Positions 1,368 through 34,339 of a stretch of 64,000 nt of DNA are shown piece by piece (position 1 is the stretch's first letter; each line of letters starts with the position of its first letter). Under the pieces are notes generated by a model, which was not told the origin of the DNA, searched no databases, and was given only the letters and a program-made list of their open reading frames with translations. The DNA is from an uncultured Clostridia bacterium. Lineage in GTDB: Bacteria; Bacillota; Clostridia; UMGS1883. Position numbers and translations under genes: made by a program. Location: contig CANQRB010000002.1 of NCBI GenBank assembly GCA_947626145.1, positions 318,339 through 382,338 on the forward strand. Reading direction: 5' to 3'.

Positions 1368-1414
1368 CACCTGCGGCAAGCTCACGATAAAGAGCTTGTC
1401 GCAGGTGCTTTTTT
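1368..1414. terminator. Bidirectional terminator left of the invertible element
   Basis: A 16-bp stem (CACCTGCGGCAAGCTC with GAGCTTGTCGCAGGTG) is followed by TTTTTT on the plus strand and by TTTTTTT on the minus strand, so it can stop transcripts from either side. It sits 16 bp left of the inverted site at 1430. It would therefore end transcripts that leave the invertible promoter leftwards. Confidence 0.85.
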
Positions 1415-1429
1415 ATATGATTTCATCGA

Positions 1430-1457
1430 ACTTCCGATAAGAAATACTATCGGAAGT
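1430..1457 (+). repeat. Inverted recombination-type site, left, cassette 1
   Basis: The site consists of arm ACTTCCGATA, 8-bp spacer AGAAATAC and arm TATCGGAAGT. It is itself palindromic apart from the asymmetric spacer. The same site occurs inverted at 1738-1765. The 10-8-10 architecture fits a tyrosine-recombinase crossover site, but the enzyme class is inferred. Confidence 0.85.
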
Positions 1458-1591: not shown

Positions 1592-1621
1592 ATTATACTA
1601 CTTTTGCCATAAAAAAGTCAA
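1592..1621 (-). promoter_or_regulatory. Sigma-A promoter inside invertible element 1
   Basis: On the minus strand, TTGACT and TATAAT are separated by 18 bp. Transcription would start near 1585 and run left, away from the secreted-protein gene. No comparable promoter is seen facing right between the element and the gene. Confidence 0.8.
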
Positions 1622-1737: not shown

Positions 1738-1765
1738 ACTTCCGATAGTATTTCTTATAGGAAGT
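1738..1765 (-). repeat. Inverted recombination-type site, right, cassette 1
   Basis: This is the inverted partner of the site at 1430. Read on the minus strand it is ACTTCCTATA, AGAAATAC, TATCGGAAGT. The outer arm has T where the left site has G, while the spacer and inner arm are identical. Similarity extends a little beyond the 28 bp on both sides. Confidence 0.85.
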
Positions 1766-22151: not shown

Positions 22152-22183
22152 ATAGATGAGGCCATAACCTCACATAATCGAAT

Positions 22184-22342
22184 ATCTTCGGGGCAGGGCG
22201 AAATTCCCTACCGGCGGTAAAGTCCGCGAGCCCGCTTTTGGGTTGATCCGGTGAAATTCCGGAACCGACGGTTCAACCCGGGGCCGCTTCGGGCCGCGTT
22301 ATGCGGCATGGGGCCCCCGGTCACAGTCCGGATGAGAGAAGA
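22184..22342 (+). ncRNA. FMN riboswitch (RFN element)
   Basis: All conserved RFN blocks are present in order: TCTTCGGGGCAGGG, GAAATTCCCTACCGGCGGTA, AAGTCCGCGAGC, GATCCGGTGAAATTCCGG, ACCGACGGT, and AGTCCGGATGAGAGAAGA closing the first stem. The variable arm is a G/C-rich hairpin of about 45 nt. It senses FMN and controls ribU downstream through the terminator at 22374. Confidence 0.97.
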
Positions 22343-22373
22343 GAGGTGTTTTTTGTGCGTGAAATTACCTGAA

Positions 22374-22430: not shown

Positions 22431-23153
22431 ATGAACGAATTGCTTCAAACCCTGAGAGAAAATCTCTCCTTTGTTTTGGTGTGCGTCGTGGCGGCGGCGG
22501 CCATAATCGGCCTTGCGCTGCTGGCGGAGCGCACAATTTTGAAGGGCCGCCTCATCAGAATGAGCCCCACCCGCCGCACGGCCACCTGCGCCATGCTGGC
22601 GGCGGCCGCGGGACTGCTGATGTTTTTTGAATTCCCCATCCCGATCGTCGCTCCCGCCTTTTACGAGGCGGATTTCAGCGAGGTGCCGGTGCTCATCGGG
22701 GCCTTTTCCATGGGCCCTGTGGCCGGAGCGGTTATCGAGCTGGTCAAGGTCTTTGTAAAGCTGGTGCTCAAGGGCACGACCACCGCCTTTGTGGGCGACT
22801 TCGCCAACTTTTTCATCGGCTGTACGATGATAGTTCCGGCCTCGATCATATATCACCTCAAAAAGACACGAACCAACGCCGTCGTATCGCTGCTTTCGGG
22901 CACGGCCTTTATGGCGGTTTTCGGCAGCGTGTTCAACGCCGTGTACCTCATACCCAAGTTTGCCCAGCTTTTCGGCGCTCCGCTGGAGGCCATAATCGCC
23001 ATGGGCGCCGAGATAAATCCCCATATCACAAGCGCGTGGAGCCTTGCCCTCTGGGCGGTGGTGCCCTTCAATGTGATTAAGGGCGTCGGCGTGTCGGTCA
23101 TTACCATGCTTTTGTATAAGCCGCTTTCGGGGATTATCAAAGGAAAAAAATAG
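22431..23153 (+). CDS. ribU: Riboflavin ECF transporter S component
   Basis: RibU is the membrane substrate-binding subunit that works with the shared ECF energising module to import riboflavin. The 240 residues contain the diagnostic FEFPIPIVAPAFYEADFSEV and PVLIGAFSMGPVAG near the N-terminal third, then EIVKVF-like helices (VIELVKVFVKLVLKGTTTA) and an NxxK motif late (PFNVIKGVGVSV). An extra N-terminal helix precedes the conserved core. Control by an FMN riboswitch confirms the role. GGAACC precedes the ATG weakly. No ECF ATPase genes are in the window. Confidence 0.95.
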   Translation: MNELLQTLRENLSFVLVCVVAAAAIIGLALLAERTILKGRLIRMSPTRRTATCAMLAAAAGLLMFFEFPIPIVAPAFYEADFSEVPVLIGAFSMGPVAGAVIELVKVFVKLVLKGTTTAFVGDFANFFIGCTMIVPASIIYHLKKTRTNAVVSLLSGTAFMAVFGSVFNAVYLIPKFAQLFGAPLEAIIAMGAEINPHITSAWSLALWAVVPFNVIKGVGVSVITMLLYKPLSGIIKGKK

Positions 23154-23200: not shown

Positions 23201-23226
23201 AATCCGCTCAATGGAGCGGATTTTTT
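23201..23226. terminator. Bidirectional terminator between ribU and invertible element 2
   Basis: A perfect 9-bp stem (AATCCGCTC with GAGCGGATT) is flanked by A6 on the left and T6 on the right, so it can work both ways. It ends ribU and would also stop leftward transcripts from the invertible promoter. Confidence 0.9.
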
Positions 23227-23230
23227 AGTT

Positions 23231-23258
23231 AGTTCCGATAAGAAATGCTATCGGAAGT
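23231..23258 (+). repeat. Inverted recombination-type site, left, cassette 2
   Basis: The site consists of arm AGTTCCGATA, 8-bp spacer AGAAATGC and arm TATCGGAAGT. It matches the site at 1430 except for one base in the outer arm and one in the spacer (A to G). Confidence 0.85.
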
Positions 23259-23391
23259 AAAACCGAGCGGCCTTTCATCGCCTTTTGGCTGGTTTTGCAG
23301 TCGACCTCTGCGCCGCCAACCCGGCAAATCCGGCTTAACACAGCCTTTTTCCGATGATTTCCATAATCAGCACATGGAATTTCTTAGCTTC

Positions 23392-23421
23392 ATTATACTA
23401 CTTTTCCCACATAAAAGTCAA
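23392..23421 (-). promoter_or_regulatory. Sigma-A promoter inside invertible element 2
   Basis: On the minus strand, TTGACT and TATAAT are separated by 18 bp, identical in design and relative position to the promoter at 1592-1621. Confidence 0.8.
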
Positions 23422-23537
23422 TATCTTTCCCTTATCCATAATGTACAAAATTGTTGTAAGTAATTGTGCAATTTCAACAAATAATTTCCAATTTTCATTT
23501 TTCTGTTGTGGATTTTGCCACAAAACTGCATAGTTTT

Positions 23538-23565
23538 ACTTCCGATAGCATTTCTTATAGGAAGT
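23538..23565 (-). repeat. Inverted recombination-type site, right, cassette 2
   Basis: Read on the minus strand it is ACTTCCTATA, AGAAATGC, TATCGGAAGT. It shares the G-containing spacer with its left partner and the outer-arm T with the right site of cassette 1. Confidence 0.85.
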
Positions 23566-23616
23566 TGGCATGGAATCGAAAATTTATTATTTTGTAATTT
23601 AAGGAGGAAACAAAAA

Positions 23617-26600
23617 ATGAGAATCAAAAAAGTTCTGTCATTGGCCGTGGTCCTCGCCATGGTATTGACAGTAGTGCCCATGTTTGGGATCACCGCAAGC
23701 GCGGAAGAGACGAAACCAGATGTATCATCTCTTGAGCTAGTTTTCAACGGAGCCAGAGAAGGGAGTTTCAGCGACACGCCAATTAATGTCGCTTATACAG
23801 ATTGGTCATCAGAAACTACGGACAGTGACGGTCATGTAAATGTACAAAAATATGAAGGTTTTGGTGAAAAAGGTACGACTATACAGTTTTATGCTGGAGC
23901 ATGGGATGGCAACGGTGGTGCTATAAATAAAGAATGTACTGTTACAGCTAAGACTACTCTAGCTATAGATGCTGAAATGATTGTATTAGAATGGTACAAT
24001 GAATTTAACGAAGAGGATGGCAACTACAGGACATTTACATTCATTGATAGTGTCGGCGCTGATATAGATTCTTACGAAATTGACACTAATAGCGGTTTAC
24101 ATTGGAAAGGTTTAAAGCGTGTTTTTGGATATCCGGTAAATAAAGCAAAATACACCTTTGTTGCAGTTAACAACACGGAGGCTAATACTCACAGCACATT
24201 TTATTACGTAAATGACAAACTCAGTGCGAAAAATGAAGGGCTATCTGGCACATTCAATGGCTTTGGGGGCATTAAGTGTTTAATCGGTAAGTGGAATAAA
24301 AAAGGCAGAAATTATGGCTTTGCTGATTTAAAGATTTATTCCGGAAGTATTAAAACTGTTGGTGTTACCGTGAAAATTGCTGAACAGGGTAAGGAGTCTA
24401 ATCCTATACATTCGTTTACAGAAAATGTTCTTATAGGTAGCATGTATACACCAAATATTGACAACTACTATATAGATTCTGAAAACAGTATGGTTTACAA
24501 ACTTCAGTCTGTAGAACCTGTAGAAATAACAGCGGAACCTGAAGATATAGTTGTTACTGCGACACCTTATCGTAAAATATCTAGTGAAAAACAAAATCTT
24601 ATAACTAATGGAAGTTTTGAAAACGAAGCCGGAAATTTTGATACTACGGGCTGGCTGTCTCCACAATCAAATGCTGAAATTCCAAACCCGCAAAATAATA
24701 ATACGGGACACTTTATGGCTGTAAAAAAGGATGATGGATATTATTTTGAATCATCTCATAAAGATTGGAGTACCGGCGATGATGGTATGCCTACGAAAGC
24801 CGATGGTAATCCAACGGATGGCAGCTGGTACCTTCTCGGTAAATATGGTGACCCATATGATGGACTTTGCTCTTTAAAGCGGACGTTTGATTTAACCCCA
24901 GGAGCAAGTTATGTTTTCAGCTTTGATACAAGAATGCTTAAAGGGAGTGGCTCTGGAGACAATATTCATTTTGGACTTGTTGCTGAGGGTAAGGATATAT
25001 CCGATGAGAATGCTGCACTTGGAGAAAAGACGACTGGAAAGCTTGACGACAATTGGAAGACAGTATCCTTTGTGTTTGTGGCAGATGAGAATCTTAATGC
25101 ATTGCAGTTTAGAGCTTGGTGCATTGGAAGTGAAGGGTCGCTTGCTGGAGAGGGAAGACTTTGTTTTGATAACTTCAAACTTTACAAGTTAGAACCTCTC
25201 GATACACAAACGGAGGTAAAGGTGACCTACAAGTGCGGCGAAAAAACTTTGTTAGAAAAATACGTCACATATGAAAAGGGTGAAGATGGGGTTACTTTCC
25301 CCGAAAGGTATCTATATAACGACGGCGAAATTTACTATCTCCCCGAGGTTCAACTCACCGAAAGTAAAGAAATCACAGATGCTGATGGAGTAAGAAAGGT
25401 TGACCATTATACTTCCAAAACGCCCAATGTTCCTTTCTCTGTTGACGGTGAAAAATTCTATAAGCTAACAGAAGGCGCTGAGAGCGTTGTTGTAAACGGT
25501 AATTTTACTACCGGTGATGCACTTGGCTGGACAGCACGCAGTGGTAATAAAAATAATGGTACTGTACGCAAAGAAGCCGTTAAAGGTGTTGAAACGAATG
25601 TCCTCAAAGCAGGAAATCAAAACGATAACACTATAGGCCAAATTTGGGCCCTTGCACCAGCTACGACATACTTTATAAGCTTTGATGTGGCAGGAGTAGC
25701 TAAAGATGGCCAAGGTAACTTATATGCTTCTTTAGTACCCAGTGCTTCGGCAGAAGCAGCAAGAACTGCTGCCACAAACAATATATCTTCTGATAACGGC
25801 GATCTCCTCAAAGATAAATGGCAGGTATCTACAAATTGGATAAATTACAGCATGATTTATACCTCCGAAGCCGGAACACCATATTTGTCACTTTGCTTTG
25901 CTTATATGGGCAATGCCAGACTGGCAAATGTAGAGATCATACCGGTTGAAGAAGTTGGAAGCTCTACAGATATAACAGTATCTTTTAAGAATGAGGGCAC
26001 TGAAGTATATTCGTCTACCCAAAAAGGATTGGATGGAGCAGAGATCAAAGTTCCCTATCAAATAGTAAAGGGTTCATCAGACGAAAAGAATTATGTACTT
26101 CCGCATGATGCTACGAAAGTAGCTGATAATGGTAAAGTTGAGGTTGATGTTGTACCCGTGAAAGCGTTTACATGGAATAAAGTGAATAATGTTATCCATG
26201 TTCAGAATCCAGGCGATGATCTTGATTACGCCACACAGGCAGTGAATGCCAGCCACGACCTTAACCGTGAGGGCTACGCCGTTATTGACAATGTTCCTGA
26301 AAACGCCAATGTGCTTGTTCTTGACGCATGGTTCAATAATGTTAACGGTGATACCGTACAGTATCCAAAACTTACATTTAACGCGGTTTCCGGCACTGGT
26401 CTTGAAACTATCAATCTTACCGAAGGGGAAGCGACAACAACTGCTTTGAACAAAATGTTTGAGACACCTGTTCAAACAGTAACTGAATTTGACACCACAG
26501 GAGCCGTTCCTGTTCCCGCCGATCATCATCAGGGCGTTACAGTAAAAGTATATGTTCCTATGGATCTTGCCAGCCTCAGTGGAACCGGAGCGTCCATAAA

Positions 26601-27327
26601 AATGACTACAGTTTCTACTCAGGGCGGTATGATTACCGTTTACGGTATGTCTGCCGAACACGTTGATGTACCCGGGAAAGCCGCAGTTGAATTGGGTTAT
26701 GACGAGAAAAGTAATCAGTTCCGCTTCCTTGTTACGTCTGAAAATGCGGACTCTATTAAGGCGTCCGTTGAAGGTAAAGGTGATCAGACAGTACCGCTTG
26801 GAGATACTGACGGTCTTGCTCTCGCCGCTGAACAGACTAATGCCATTTATACATTCAAAGGCTTAAACAATAACGTTGAGGGTGAAGTTTCCGAGCCTGC
26901 CAGCATATATAGCCTTTTGGCTAATGCTCTTACAAATGGATTTGACGCTAACAACAAGATCAAGAATATTGATGCGGTAAACAAAGTCGTTTCCGCCGGA
27001 GGTCTTGCGTTTAAGACCGGCAACACGGAACTCAACACAGAGGCCGCAATGATATTTGAGTTTAAAGATAATACGGTCTCTGTTAAAGATGCTCTTTACA
27101 ACGCCGGTATAATACTCAGTAAAATTACTTATGTTGCAGGTGAAAAAACCGGTGAAATTGAATCTGCTGACGGCAAGAGCGTTGATCTTACAGAGGTACT
27201 CACTACTCAAGCAATTGACAGCGTTATCACCTTTGAGGCCGTAGAGTTTGAGTTTGTAGAAACTGAGATTGCCGAGTCCGTTGACGAAAGCGCGGACAGC
27301 GAAATCGACTTCATCGAAGAATTATAA
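23617..27327 (+). CDS. Large secreted modular surface protein, cassette 2
   Basis: This 1236-residue protein is a paralogue of the one at 1819. The signal peptide is nearly identical (MRIKKVLSLAVVLAMVLTVV) with cleavage near TASA. The N-terminal region is unrelated in detail to the paralogue. Two CBM4/9-like modules are suggested by NGSFENEAGNFDTTGW (near 327) and NGNFTTGDALGWTA (near 624). The last 215 residues align with the paralogue (VELGYDEKSNQFRFLVTSE) and the acidic tail is identical in protein. No enzyme signature or wall anchor is seen. AAGGAGG precedes the ATG at 23617, which rules out the in-frame start inside the invertible element. The gene is AT-richer than its neighbours. Confidence 0.8.
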   Translation: MRIKKVLSLAVVLAMVLTVVPMFGITASAEETKPDVSSLELVFNGAREGSFSDTPINVAYTDWSSETTDSDGHVNVQKYEGFGEKGTTIQFYAGAWDGNGGAINKECTVTAKTTLAIDAEMIVLEWYNEFNEEDGNYRTFTFIDSVGADIDSYEIDTNSGLHWKGLKRVFGYPVNKAKYTFVAVNNTEANTHSTFYYVNDKLSAKNEGLSGTFNGFGGIKCLIGKWNKKGRNYGFADLKIYSGSIKTVGVTVKIAEQGKESNPIHSFTENVLIGSMYTPNIDNYYIDSENSMVYKLQSVEPVEITAEPEDIVVTATPYRKISSEKQNLITNGSFENEAGNFDTTGWLSPQSNAEIPNPQNNNTGHFMAVKKDDGYYFESSHKDWSTGDDGMPTKADGNPTDGSWYLLGKYGDPYDGLCSLKRTFDLTPGASYVFSFDTRMLKGSGSGDNIHFGLVAEGKDISDENAALGEKTTGKLDDNWKTVSFVFVADENLNALQFRAWCIGSEGSLAGEGRLCFDNFKLYKLEPLDTQTEVKVTYKCGEKTLLEKYVTYEKGEDGVTFPERYLYNDGEIYYLPEVQLTESKEITDADGVRKVDHYTSKTPNVPFSVDGEKFYKLTEGAESVVVNGNFTTGDALGWTARSGNKNNGTVRKEAVKGVETNVLKAGNQNDNTIGQIWALAPATTYFISFDVAGVAKDGQGNLYASLVPSASAEAARTAATNNISSDNGDLLKDKWQVSTNWINYSMIYTSEAGTPYLSLCFAYMGNARLANVEIIPVEEVGSSTDITVSFKNEGTEVYSSTQKGLDGAEIKVPYQIVKGSSDEKNYVLPHDATKVADNGKVEVDVVPVKAFTWNKVNNVIHVQNPGDDLDYATQAVNASHDLNREGYAVIDNVPENANVLVLDAWFNNVNGDTVQYPKLTFNAVSGTGLETINLTEGEATTTALNKMFETPVQTVTEFDTTGAVPVPADHHQGVTVKVYVPMDLASLSGTGASIKMTTVSTQGGMITVYGMSAEHVDVPGKAAVELGYDEKSNQFRFLVTSENADSIKASVEGKGDQTVPLGDTDGLALAAEQTNAIYTFKGLNNNVEGEVSEPASIYSLLANALTNGFDANNKIKNIDAVNKVVSAGGLAFKTGNTELNTEAAMIFEFKDNTVSVKDALYNAGIILSKITYVAGEKTGEIESADGKSVDLTEVLTTQAIDSVITFEAVEFEFVETEIAESVDESADSEIDFIEEL

Positions 27328-29624: not shown

Positions 29625-29652
29625 TTAAATAACGAATATGAGGGAAAATAAA

Positions 29653-31386
29653 ATGAAAAAGCTTTTGTCTGTACTTTTGGTTTTGTCAATGCTCTGCGCG
29701 CTGACGCCGGCCTTTGCGGCGGCGTCCTTCACCGACATATCCGGCCACTGGGCCGAGGGGGCAATTAACGCTATGGCCGAGGCCGGAGCGGTGAGCGGCT
29801 ATCCCGACGGCACGTTCAGGCCCGACGAGCCGGTGACAAGGGCGGAGTTCGCCAAGATCATCACCGAGCTTTACGGCTTTGACACCACCGACAGCGGCTG
29901 GCTGTTCTTCCCCGACGGGGAAAAGGACGCCTGGTACGGGCCGTATATGCCGGCCTACAAGGTGCTTGTGGATTGGCAGCTTTTTAAGGCCTGCTCCGAG
30001 TACGGCTATCCCGAGGGCTGGAGCGAGGACACCTTCAAATATTTTGACGCCGAAAAGCCCCTGACCCGCATAGAGGCCGCTCAGGCCATACGCTTTGTGG
30101 TGGGGATAGGCGACGGCAGTTTTGACGATGAGCTGGCGGCTCTTGCCGCGTCCAACGCCGACGGCGGGGACTATGCGGATAACCGGGGCATTTCCGTACT
30201 GATAGGCGCGGTAATGTATTTGGAGCTGATGAACGGCGACGGCAACGGCCGCTTCCGTCCCTTTGACCCCATTACCCGGGCCGAGGTCTGCACCGTCCTC
30301 GAAAGGGCACGCAGAGATCACGGAAGGAGCAACGTCAACGAATTTATCACGGTGGCGGTTTATATGGCGGATCAGGAGGCCGGAAAAACTCCCGAACAAA
30401 TATCCGCCGAGGAAGAGGAACGTATTATTGCAAGATTTGAGAAAATGGCGGCGTCAGATGGCTTCCTTTCCGAGGAAAAAAAGACCGACGCCGACCGTGA
30501 GATCGTCGCGGCCTTCGGCGGCGTGGAGTTCAGCCGGGCGGACTATGACCTCTTAAGCTGGCTCTATTATTGGCTTTATTCCGGCCTCTTTGAAGAACAT
30601 ATGGAACAAAACGGCATCGACGGCTGGGAAATAGAAATGTACGGCGGAATCTTTAACAACAGCGGTGATTATGCGGGTCTCGCCTTTGACGAGGCGGCGG
30701 CGAGGGCCGTAGTCGATGAGATGAAGCGGATGGCGGCGGCCGAGATAAAATTTGACGAGTTTGGCCTTGACCGGCGGACGGCCTTTGCAAACGGCTACAG
30801 CGCTTACCACTTTTCCGACCTCGACAGCGACGGCGAGGACGCGGAGCGCCTTAAGCTCCACGGCGGCACGGATTACGCCATTGAAAGACTGCTGTATTTT
30901 GAGGCCGTGGAGGATATGCTCCGCGACTTTATGACCGAGCCCGGCGGCCAATGCTATCCTGACACTACGGAGGATATGCGGCAGTACTGCTTTAAGACCT
31001 GTCATGTGCTGGCCCTTGCGGACGGCGCCGACGACGCCGAGGCTAAGGCGAGGGCCGAGGCGGTGATCGCCCGCCTTGACGCCGGGGAGGATATGAGCGC
31101 AATCATCGACGGGTGCGGCGGGGAGCCGGGTATGGAGGTCAGCCGCGGCGACGTTTTCACCGAGGGCGATATGATAGACGAGTTATATCAGGAGGCAAAG
31201 GCCCTCGAGCCGGGCCAATATTCAAAAGAACCCGTTAAAACCAAATACGGCTATTTCGTTGTCTGCCGCCTGCCCATTGTCGGCGACGAGCCGGAATTGG
31301 AGTGGCTGAGGAACAGGGTCGCCCGAAAGATGTTTGACGATTTTATGGAGCTTTGCGTGGAAGAATTTGAAGATAACCCGCGGTAG
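29653..31386 (+). CDS. SLH-anchored parvulin-type foldase 1
   Basis: This 577-residue exported protein has a signal peptide ending near AFAA. Three SLH repeats follow (FTDISGHWAEGAINAMAEAG with PDGTFRPDEPVTRAEFAKI; two more up to about residue 220), and these bind pyruvylated wall polymer. A SurA/PrsA-like chaperone helix region follows (DREIVAAFGGVEFSRADYD). The C-terminal parvulin rotamase domain includes CHVLALADG, RAEAVIARLDAGEDM, and EPVKTKYGYFVVCRLP. It probably folds secreted proteins at the cell surface. GAGGG lies 8 bp before the ATG at 29653. A tandem paralogue follows 22 bp later. Confidence 0.88.
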   Translation: MKKLLSVLLVLSMLCALTPAFAAASFTDISGHWAEGAINAMAEAGAVSGYPDGTFRPDEPVTRAEFAKIITELYGFDTTDSGWLFFPDGEKDAWYGPYMPAYKVLVDWQLFKACSEYGYPEGWSEDTFKYFDAEKPLTRIEAAQAIRFVVGIGDGSFDDELAALAASNADGGDYADNRGISVLIGAVMYLELMNGDGNGRFRPFDPITRAEVCTVLERARRDHGRSNVNEFITVAVYMADQEAGKTPEQISAEEEERIIARFEKMAASDGFLSEEKKTDADREIVAAFGGVEFSRADYDLLSWLYYWLYSGLFEEHMEQNGIDGWEIEMYGGIFNNSGDYAGLAFDEAAARAVVDEMKRMAAAEIKFDEFGLDRRTAFANGYSAYHFSDLDSDGEDAERLKLHGGTDYAIERLLYFEAVEDMLRDFMTEPGGQCYPDTTEDMRQYCFKTCHVLALADGADDAEAKARAEAVIARLDAGEDMSAIIDGCGGEPGMEVSRGDVFTEGDMIDELYQEAKALEPGQYSKEPVKTKYGYFVVCRLPIVGDEPELEWLRNRVARKMFDDFMELCVEEFEDNPR

Positions 31387-31408
31387 AGGCGGGGTTGGAG
31401 GTTGCTTA

Positions 31409-33130
31409 ATGAAAAAATTTTTGTCTGTACTTTTGGTTTTGTCAATGCTCTGCGCGCTGACGCCGGCATTCGCGGCGGCGTCCTTCACCGACGTATCCGG
31501 CCACTGGGCCGAGGGTGCCATTAATGCCATGGCCGAGGCCGGAGCGGTGGACGGTTACCCTGACGGCACATTCAGGCCCGACGAGCCGGTGACAAGGGCG
31601 GAGTTTGCAAAAATAATTACCGAGTATTTTGACCTGCCCGCCAGCGATTACGGCTGGTATGTATTTGACGACGTGGACGGGGCCGACTGGTACGCCCCCT
31701 ATGTCGTGAATTACAAGGTGCTTGTTTTTGACGGATTTAAGGATTGGCCCGACCCACGGCTGGGCGAAAACTACGGTGTCGCCTTTGAAGCCGAGGCGCC
31801 CGTCACCCGTATAGAGGCGGCTTTGCCCCTGCTCGCCTGCGGCTGCCGGGAAAAGCTGGACGAGTCCATGGGTCGGTATGAAGAACTGTCTGACGCGTTC
31901 TCGGCTTTGGCGGCTGAAGCGGCGAAATATACAGACTTTGAGGATTTGGGCAGTGAAAACGGCAGCAGCCTGTGGCTCGCGGCGGCTCTGGCTTCCTCCG
32001 CCGGACTGATGACCGGCGACGGCGAAGGGCGGTTCCGTCCCTGGGACGGACTGAGCCGGGCGGAGCTTTGCACCCTGCTGACCAGATGCTCCAAGGATGT
32101 TAACGACTATATAGTGGAGGAGATCTCGGATTACAATATAAGACTCAATAGGCTGGCGGACTTCATGTCCGAGGAAAAAAAGACCGACGCCGACCGTGAG
32201 ACCGTCGCCACGATATGCGGCACGGACGTCAGCCTTGCAGACTACAATTACATATATAATATTTGGGCCGCGTTGTATGAGGACGATTACGGCGAGGACT
32301 GGGCGAGCCGGCCCTGCGATATGTACGGAGCGGCTCACGAAGGTTATACCCTGGGAAACGCGGCCCGTGCGGAGACTCTGTCCGCTCTGGGAGGGCTGGT
32401 GTGCGCGGCCCGGGAGGCCGCCGAATACGGCTGGGACAGTCCATCCTTAAAATATACGGCGGCGGAAGAAATGTACACATATATAAATACAGAATATGAC
32501 AGTTTGGACGAGCATAGGGCGGAACTGGAGAATATCGGCTCCTCTTTGTACGCCGAGGAAAAATACGAGTATATGTGTGCGCTGATGTATATGCTTGAGG
32601 AATCGTACATCATGCCCGGCGGCCTATATTATGCCACGCCGGAGGAGGTAGTGCAAAATTACCTTAAGGCCGGTCATGTGCTCATCCTTGCTGACGGCGA
32701 CACCGACGACGCCGAGGCAAAGGCAAGGGCCGAGGAGGTTATCGCCCGTCTTGACGCCGGGGAGGATATGCGGACCCTCATTGATGAGTGCGGCGAGGAT
32801 CCCGGCATGAGGAACCGTGACTACTATATGTTCACCGAGGGCGACATGGTGGACGAGTTCTATGAGGGGACAAAGGCCCTTGAGCCCGGCCAATATTCCA
32901 AGGAGCCCGTCAAGACCGACTACGGCTATCACGTTATTTACCGCCTGCCCATTACCGGCGACGAACCGGAGATAGAGGAACTTAGGGAGGAGCTGTCGTA
33001 CAAAAAATTCGATGCCCTTGTGGATGAATGGATGACCGAAATATGCGGGAATATCGGGATAAAAAGTGACGCGGCGGGGATAACGCCCGAGGATATCCGG
33101 CTTATTTCACTCTTGTATTCGCGTGATTAA
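31409..33130 (+). CDS. SLH-anchored parvulin-type foldase 2
   Basis: This 573-residue tandem paralogue of the preceding gene has a signal peptide and first SLH repeat nearly identical even in nucleotides. The later SLH repeats and the chaperone region are diverged. The parvulin domain (GHVLILADG, ARAEEVIARLDAGEDM, EPVKTDYGYHVIYRLP) keeps the conserved pattern and is followed by a C-terminal extension of about 40 residues not seen in copy 1. GGAGG precedes the ATG at 31409. The two copies probably serve different clients or arose by recent duplication with homogenised 5' ends. Confidence 0.87.
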   Translation: MKKFLSVLLVLSMLCALTPAFAAASFTDVSGHWAEGAINAMAEAGAVDGYPDGTFRPDEPVTRAEFAKIITEYFDLPASDYGWYVFDDVDGADWYAPYVVNYKVLVFDGFKDWPDPRLGENYGVAFEAEAPVTRIEAALPLLACGCREKLDESMGRYEELSDAFSALAAEAAKYTDFEDLGSENGSSLWLAAALASSAGLMTGDGEGRFRPWDGLSRAELCTLLTRCSKDVNDYIVEEISDYNIRLNRLADFMSEEKKTDADRETVATICGTDVSLADYNYIYNIWAALYEDDYGEDWASRPCDMYGAAHEGYTLGNAARAETLSALGGLVCAAREAAEYGWDSPSLKYTAAEEMYTYINTEYDSLDEHRAELENIGSSLYAEEKYEYMCALMYMLEESYIMPGGLYYATPEEVVQNYLKAGHVLILADGDTDDAEAKARAEEVIARLDAGEDMRTLIDECGEDPGMRNRDYYMFTEGDMVDEFYEGTKALEPGQYSKEPVKTDYGYHVIYRLPITGDEPEIEELREELSYKKFDALVDEWMTEICGNIGIKSDAAGITPEDIRLISLLYSRD

Positions 33131-33172
33131 CGGCGGGAAAACAATATTTATATGAACAGGGAGATGTATGAA

Positions 33173-34339
33173 ATGAAGAAATTTTTGACGTTGATTTTGA
33201 CCTTTGCGATGCTCTGCACGCTGACGCCGGCCTATGCGGCGTCCTTCACCGACACCGCCGGCCACTGGGCCGGGGCGGATATCGAGGCCATGGCCGCCGC
33301 CGGAGTTGTGAACGGCTATGACGACGGCTCCTTCCGCCCCGACGCTCCCGTGACAAGGGCGGAGTTCGCCAAAATTCTGACCGAGCTTTACGGCCTGCCC
33401 ACGGGCGATTACGGCTGGTATTTTTACGGCGACGTGGAGCCCGGCCAGTGGTACACCCCCTATGTGCCGGCCTATTGTGTGCTGGTGGATCTGCCCCTGG
33501 CCGGAATGTGCGATTACTTTGGATGGCCCAGGAGCTGGGGCGATGATTATTTCTATGACTTTGCCCCTCAGCGGCCTCTGACCCGCATCGAGGCGGCTCA
33601 GGCTTTGGATTACATCACGGGCAGCATAGAGGATGAGGAGATGTACGATTTCCTCATAGAGTTGGGCTTAAGCACCGCCGACAGCCCGGACTATGCGGAC
33701 AATCCGGGCATATCCCTTCTGGCGGGCAGCGTTATGTTCAAGCAGCTCATGAACGGCGACGATCAGGATCGCTTCCGCCCCTATGACACCATCAGCCGGG
33801 CCGAGGTCTGCACCCTTCTGAACCGTGCCGTAAACGCCTATGACCTCGATGACATCGCTTACATGGACGTACAGAGCGCCGTTGACGCTCTGGCGGAAGC
33901 ATACTTTGAGGAGGAAGGCGGCGGCTATTTTGACGGCGTAACCGCCGGCGGCGATTTTTCCGACTGGGCCCTGGAGGTGCTCGATCTGGTCAACGCCGAG
34001 CGCGCTAAGGAGGGGGCTGCTCCTCTCGAGCTGGACGCCGACCTCTGCGCCGTGGCCCAGCTTCACAGCAACGACATGGTGGCCCGGGGCTTTTTCGACC
34101 ACTACAACCCTGACGGCCTGTCCCCCTTTGACCGCATGAGCGCTTACGGCATCAGATATATGGCCGCCGGTGAAAATATCGCCGCCGGTCAGCGGTCGCC
34201 CGAGGCCGTCATGAACAGCTGGATGAATTCCCCCGGCCACCGGAGCAATATCCTCAATCCAAGCTACAAAAAAATGGGCATTGCCTGGGCCGATGGCGGC
34301 GACTACGGAATTTACTGGACACAGTGCTTCACAGATTAA
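33173..34339 (+). CDS. SLH-anchored CAP/SCP domain protein
   Basis: This 388-residue exported protein has a signal peptide and three SLH repeats (FTDTAGHWAGADIEAMAAAG and following). A CAP (SCP/PR1) domain covers the last 125 residues: LDLVNAERAKEGAAPLELD, QLHSNDMVARGFFDHYNP, AGENIAAG, NSWMNSPGHRSNILNP. The His and Glu of the CAP cavity are present. The function of bacterial CAP proteins is poorly known. I prefer the ATG at 33173, since AGGGAG lies 11 bp upstream, over the ATG at 33152. It ends the three-gene SLH cluster. Confidence 0.87.
   Translation: MKKFLTLILTFAMLCTLTPAYAASFTDTAGHWAGADIEAMAAAGVVNGYDDGSFRPDAPVTRAEFAKILTELYGLPTGDYGWYFYGDVEPGQWYTPYVPAYCVLVDLPLAGMCDYFGWPRSWGDDYFYDFAPQRPLTRIEAAQALDYITGSIEDEEMYDFLIELGLSTADSPDYADNPGISLLAGSVMFKQLMNGDDQDRFRPYDTISRAEVCTLLNRAVNAYDLDDIAYMDVQSAVDALAEAYFEEEGGGYFDGVTAGGDFSDWALEVLDLVNAERAKEGAAPLELDADLCAVAQLHSNDMVARGFFDHYNPDGLSPFDRMSAYGIRYMAAGENIAAGQRSPEAVMNSWMNSPGHRSNILNPSYKKMGIAWADGGDYGIYWTQCFTD

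Follow-up and report, generated by a model that had tools for sequence, protein, structure and literature searches.

The window analyzed here, a stretch of 64,000 nucleotides from the genome of an uncultured Clostridia bacterium, carries two intergenic cassettes with the same layout, each preceding a long gene for a predicted secreted protein (Table 1). The one at 23231-23616 is bounded by two 28-bp near-palindromes in inverted orientation, each with a single mismatch to ACTTCCGATA-N8-TATCGGAAGT, and an inverted-repeat search aligned positions 23233-23263 with 23533-23563 (31 nt, 97% complementary). Four such sites are present in the window at up to 3 mismatches, and none appeared in 100 dinucleotide shuffles. 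Between the two sites of this cassette there is a strong sigma-70 promoter (23421-23392, minus strand) that agrees with the consensus at 11 of 12 positions, with an 18-nt spacer. Inverted repeats and an outward-directed promoter near a gene, the combination by which invertible promoters (invertons) are recognized, are thus found together at 23231-23565. An earlier sequence-only reading of this DNA had described an invertible promoter in the OFF state, and our searches recovered its sites and its leftward promoter exactly where it had put them, with the promoter directed away from the gene that starts at 23617.

The same reading had placed a bidirectional terminator at 23201-23226. The fold search did detect a hairpin there (CCGCTCAATGGAGCGG), with T in 6 of the 8 bases that follow, but it was missing from the list given by a consensus terminator scan, which contained a hairpin at 23191-23172 instead. 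We still regard it as likely that the hairpin at 23201-23226 is a bidirectional terminator insulating the switch. Within the switch itself, 12 Rfam matches were all under their gathering scores (SAM-III, 31.5 versus 45) and were taken as chance. The gene upstream codes for a component of an ECF transporter (22431-23153) and is located behind an FMN riboswitch (22180-22347, 98.9 bits), i.e., an ordinary case of riboflavin uptake. Elsewhere in the window (29638-34339), there are three related tandem genes with repeated segments and a period of ca. 1.76 kb.

Table 1. Features of the two cassettes in the window and positions of the other site pairs in the genome
Feature	Position	Strand	Details or basis
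Left recombination site AGTTCCGATAAGAAATGCTATCGGAAGT	23231..23258	+	order: outer arm, spacer AGAAATGC (8 nt), inner arm
Right recombination site, inverted copy	23538..23565	-	outer arm TATAGGAAGT adjoins the gene; spacer equal to that of the left site
Segment expected to invert, 279 bp	23259..23537	.	genome copies
Promoter TTGACT-18-TATAAT, directed away from the gene (OFF)	23392..23421	-	consensus match
TTGCACAA box; the -35 hexamer lies 50 nt downstream	23464..23471	-	candidate regulator site
Leader motif AGAGGTCGACTGCAAA, conserved; expected in the ON-state mRNA leader	23294..23309	-	comparison of cassettes
Hairpin with an A-run before and a T-run after	23201..23226	.	by eye and fold search
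Putatively switched gene, 1236-aa predicted secreted protein	23617..27327	+	signal peptide MRIKKVLSLAVVLAMVLTVVPMFGITASAEE, CBM_4_9 carbohydrate-binding domain, ends in DFIEEL
Sister cassette, left site	1430..1457	+	site search
Sister cassette, right site	1738..1765	-	site search
Sister cassette, promoter, also OFF	1592..1621	-	consensus match
Sister cassette, terminator, 16-bp stem, other sequence	1368..1407	.	hairpin search
Sister cassette, putatively switched gene, 1188 aa	1819..5385	+	weak Big_4 match
Other four site pairs in the genome	C2:212251/212559, C2:241095/241401, C4:3274/3581, C4:37128/37436		genome site search

Site pairs in the genome and the genus

At up to 3 mismatches, the whole 2.44-Mb genome contains exactly 12 sites of 28 nt, forming six pairs 306 to 308 bp apart, all of which precede members of one gene family; the genome-wide search for the full set of loci that the sequence-only reading had suggested thus came to six. 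Two other genomes of the same genus provided five (G007) and two (G002) more cassettes, for a total of 13. The segment 23259..23537 has five other copies in its own genome at 81 to 88% identity and two further ones, at 70 to 72%, that are oppositely oriented relative to their genes. Viral contigs scanned for the site gave 2 stretches, with a single site each.

In the two window cassettes, the sites are spaced by 308 and 307 bp, and the distance from the start of the left site to the low end of the promoter is 162 and 161 bp, bearing out the earlier statement that positions match to within one base across the two loci. In all 13 cassettes, the promoter is found at 116 to 118 nt from the segment's far end and is directed away from the gene, and a hairpin with a T-run is located to the left of the switch (13/13, at a loose score). 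Terminators differ from locus to locus, except that two loci have a left flank in common. The six putatively switched genes of the genome code for proteins of 1034 to 1236 aa with a common signal peptide and a common C-terminal region ending in FI[PE]EL, whereas their middles differ: CBM_4_9, Laminin_G_3 (two proteins), a weak Big_4, and two without any match above the cut-off. The two proteins of the window agree at 54% over about 293 aa (the C-terminal region) and at about 25% elsewhere. By these sequence features, the six proteins look secreted and glycan binding. The proposal that switch and gene were duplicated as a unit holds for the cassette, the signal peptide, and the C terminus, which are conserved, but not for the protein middles and the terminators.

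The exact TTGCACAA/TTGTACAA box is found in 8 of the 13 cassettes, always exactly 50 nt ahead of the -35 hexamer, as well as with 13 of 20 other genes of the family (3 occurrences across the whole window); it is possibly a regulon box of this family of secreted proteins. A leader motif, AGGTCGACYG, is kept in the mRNA leaders of switched, locked-ON (see below), and constitutive paralogs. No Rfam family reached the gathering threshold in the region of this motif, which might represent a new 5' UTR element.

Site spacers and paralog orientation

None of the 13 two-site cassettes, from three genomes of the genus, is in the ON orientation; all are OFF. The 8-bp spacers of the two sites are equal within the locus in 11 of the 13 (2.0 expected), and the identical central spacer typical of invertible promoters is found in 12 of 13 over 6 bp (2.5 expected). 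When the right sites were shuffled among loci, 0 of 100,000 shuffles reached the observed value in either comparison, a figure that is not a strict probability because the 13 loci are related. There are seven different left spacers among these loci. The inner arms have a mean of 0.31 within-locus mismatches per 11 bases and the outer arms 2.77, the latter being degenerate at several loci (up to 6 mismatches in 11).

Two paralogs on contig C1 (C1:151998/C1:152107 and C1:155913/C1:156023) have the same promoter and leader directed at the gene. Their right sites are decayed, with 3 and 5 mismatches, and the left site is absent from both at up to 6 mismatches. We interpret them as locked-ON derivatives, indicating that both orientations existed in the past. 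Several site-less paralogs also have the order promoter, leader motif, and gene, so a promoter directed toward the gene can be considered the normal order for expression. The spacer matching and the locked-ON forms lend indirect support to inversion.

A candidate recombinase

A profile search gave seven PF00589 matches in the genome, and there were 10 matches to serine recombinases. A tyrosine enzyme is preferred over a serine one because the short spacer and the arms suit the former and because a tyrosine enzyme adjoins the sites elsewhere. Two of the PF00589 matches are XerC- and XerD-like and have relatives in nearly all genomes of the genus, with or without sites (7/8 and 8/8, respectively). 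The tyrosine recombinases at C8:44498, C5:68839, C8:75, and C2:73 resemble element integrases or fragments, none was found beside sites, and they were discarded. The best candidate is a 290-aa protein encoded at C6:74473-75345, which scores 88 bits against PF00589 (cut-off, 27.1) and has every catalytic residue (R, K, HxxR, H, and Y) in the alignment. The sequence-only reading had expected the recombinase to lie beside one of the loci, but this gene is solitary and on another contig; there are no sites within 6 kb of it, and, being solitary, it would act in trans. It matches a psrA-annotated plasmid protein of Streptococcus dysgalactiae at 54.5% over 266 aa (54.7% by tblastn). No hsdS gene lies beside it, and since its neighbors are flavoprotein, dipicolinate synthase A-like, and gyrB-like genes, we consider it a PsrA homolog and not an hsdS invertase.

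The enzyme is present in 4 of 21 genomes of the family, all of them of its own genus (its own genome, G002, G006, and G007), and has no close relatives in the 13 family genomes outside the genus; among 391 Clostridia genomes, it was found in 6 (E ≤ 1e-60). All three site-bearing genomes encode it, and G006 has the recombinase, yet sites were not found in it at the mismatch limits used. Taken alone, the co-occurrence of recombinase and sites among the 8 genomes of the genus is weak evidence. In the recombinase neighborhoods of G164 and G381, no site was detected at up to 5 mismatches, and a viral scan using the G007 recombinase gave no match.

We scanned public genomes with the DNA pattern of the site alone and recovered 96 stretches, of which five encode a relative of the recombinase above 100 bits. 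An inverted site pair follows the end of the gene at 48 bp in an uncultured member of the Lachnospiraceae (L159) and at 36 bp in Lachnospiraceae bacterium 3-2 (L206). One site begins 169 bp ahead of the recombinase gene in Hungatella hathewayi WAL-18680, and in a Bacteroidales MAG a recombinase fragment is flanked by sites. The case of Clostridiaceae 1XD21-29, with a site and a partial recombinase gene more than 7 kb apart, says little. Two of the 10 inverted-pair loci belong to G007, and a recombinase relative accompanies three of the eight others; L165, L196, and L228, for example, have inverted pairs and no recombinase within the scanned stretch. There were also 20 plasmid matches, and hsdS genes were found near the recombinase in all five neighborhoods examined. 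Four of these five loci have the arm CTTCTCATAA, often followed by N6-TTATC, which is similar to the arm of the switch. The hsdS-linked enzymes group in a single clade of the tree (95/98), with the site-adjoining enzymes of Clostridia outside and the one from Bacteroidales inside. The C6 enzyme is probably the one that flips the six switches.

Proposed phase variation, alternatives, and known systems

Our preferred interpretation, to which we assign a probability of ca. 0.78, is that 23231-23616 is a phase-variation switch in which a PsrA-type recombinase, most likely that at C6:74473-75345, inverts the 279-bp promoter segment. The recombinase would bind each site at its 11-bp arms (ACTTCCGATAA-N6-CTATCGGAAGT), and strand exchange across the short spacer would invert the segment. 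In the OFF state, i.e., the one assembled, the promoter would fire into the terminator just outside the left site, which would also stop read-through toward the gene. With the segment in the ON orientation, promoter, upstream box, and conserved leader would be directed at the gene, giving an mRNA with the leader, the right site, the ribosome-binding site, and the coding region. The sites, their orientation and copy number, the matching of spacers, the locked-ON paralogs, the catalytic residues, and the recombinase relatives beside sites are read directly from the DNA, and we infer that inversion occurs, that the C6 enzyme has this role, and that expression follows the orientation. Since six switches would control six large secreted proteins of the carbohydrate-binding type, the proteins on display would vary from cell to cell within a clone.

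The uniform orientation of the two-site cassettes and the degeneration of the outer arms could also be explained by a frozen duplicate, in which sites and promoter were copied with the genes, inversion was lost, and the leftward promoter makes a short RNA or idles. We find this unlikely, since spacers and inner arms are identical within loci and different between them, the recombinase is intact and retained, and the locked-ON forms point to both orientations having once existed. It could also be the housekeeping XerC/XerD, and not a PsrA-type enzyme, that act on the sites: XerC- and XerD-like genes are present in the genome, and the right outer arm, read on the other strand (ACTTCCTATAA), resembles the XerC arm of the Firmicutes dif. 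However, these genes are found in nearly all genomes of the genus regardless of sites, and in place of the single dif site of XerCD/dif the genome has 12 paired sites. We consider a role for XerCD very improbable and rejected it; no site in the genome matched the dif pattern used for the search, and in other Clostridia PsrA-type genes, not Xer genes, adjoin the sites.

Short inverted terminal repeats, a noncoding piece of ca. 280 bp, and several copies are also what a MITE or another transposed repeat would have, and the sequence-only reading had named random intergenic copies with target duplications as the mark of such an element. No such scattered copies were seen across the genome at up to 3 mismatches: the 28-nt sites, 12 in the 2.44 Mb, belong without exception to the six ordered pairs before one gene family, and promoter, leader, and matched spacers are conserved. 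The MITE explanation, which we see as hardly credible, was discarded as refuted.

Inversion of promoters at multiple loci is best known from Bacteroides, and in Bacteroides fragilis a single enzyme, Mpi, flips the promoters of many surface products. Mpi differs in being a serine recombinase that uses other sites and belongs to another phylum. In Clostridioides difficile, RecV serves several loci, and its switches (cwpV and flagellar) are likewise invertible regulatory segments in a member of the Clostridia. The nearest description is that of inverton group 139 (PMC11892184), with 33 invertons, 32 of them from Clostridia, tied to "invertase group 35," which is of the tyrosine type; reads show flipping in Clostridium sp. 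D5 and Intestinimonas. It shares with the present loci the short inverted repeats in Clostridia (26 bp in D5, by coordinates) and the tyrosine-type recombinase linked by proximity, but its invertase is nearby, whereas ours is solitary. PsrA of Streptococcus (PMC4948785, PMC7096588) is of the same recombinase family as the C6 enzyme, with a similar arm at hsdS-linked loci; it is, however, located inside a type I restriction locus and reshuffles the hsdS coding sequence, whereas the sites of the present switches border promoters of genes for secreted proteins, and the hsdS-linked enzymes are a separate clade (95/98). In the parts of the inverton and PsrA literature covered (PMC11892184, PMC4948785, PMC12324116, PMC7096588), we found no description of the switched gene family. 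Invertible promoters are a known kind; what is new is the set of six switches, together with their site motif and a candidate for the invertase. In this uncultured lineage of Clostridia, at least six switches would form one consistent set. The motif, by which switches of this type can be located in further genomes, is tied to an enzyme family described so far, in the parts of the literature covered, for the shuffling of restriction specificity.

A second layout is represented by 29-nt sites, with one extra spacer base, at G007:C25:11284, G007:C25:22762, and the end of contig C4 of our own genome. The two G007 sites are inverted and 11.5 kb apart, with convergent genes, one starting just inside each site, and a leader and likely promoter only outside the left one. 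In this single assembled MAG contig, inversion would swap the gene placed under the outside promoter. Contig C4 ends at its site (G000:C4:191249-191277) with a gene inward of it, and contig C3 begins with sequence (G000:C3:1-100) that shares 93% identity with the first 100 bases of this gene; the end of C4 is probably a member of the second class split by assembly. Sites also mark contig ends in G002, each with a family gene after it (both ends of C32, where the genes converge, and C7:1-28). C32 has the look of a large invertible segment, although repeats alone could break an assembly. The breaks at G002:C7, G002:C32, and G000:C4 were dropped as a sign of mixed orientation because similar sequence after the site is enough to break assemblies. 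Tentatively, one solitary PsrA-type invertase might be an in-trans global selector of displayed glycan-binding proteins in an uncultured group of gut-type Clostridia. It would use two layouts with identical arms, short promoter flips at 28-nt sites and large inversions at 29-nt sites, and with all-off as the default, display would be the rare state.

The same site pair was also found before a csrA-type gene in three members of the Lachnospiraceae (L206:6812-7293, L159:3645-4214, and L228:7502-7994), with a CsrA match in L206 and a flagellin gene adjoining the csrA-type gene in L228. By eye, the segments of L206 and L228 contain a sigma-28-like motif directed away from csrA. These loci might be a phase switch for flagella, operated by enzymes of the same family.
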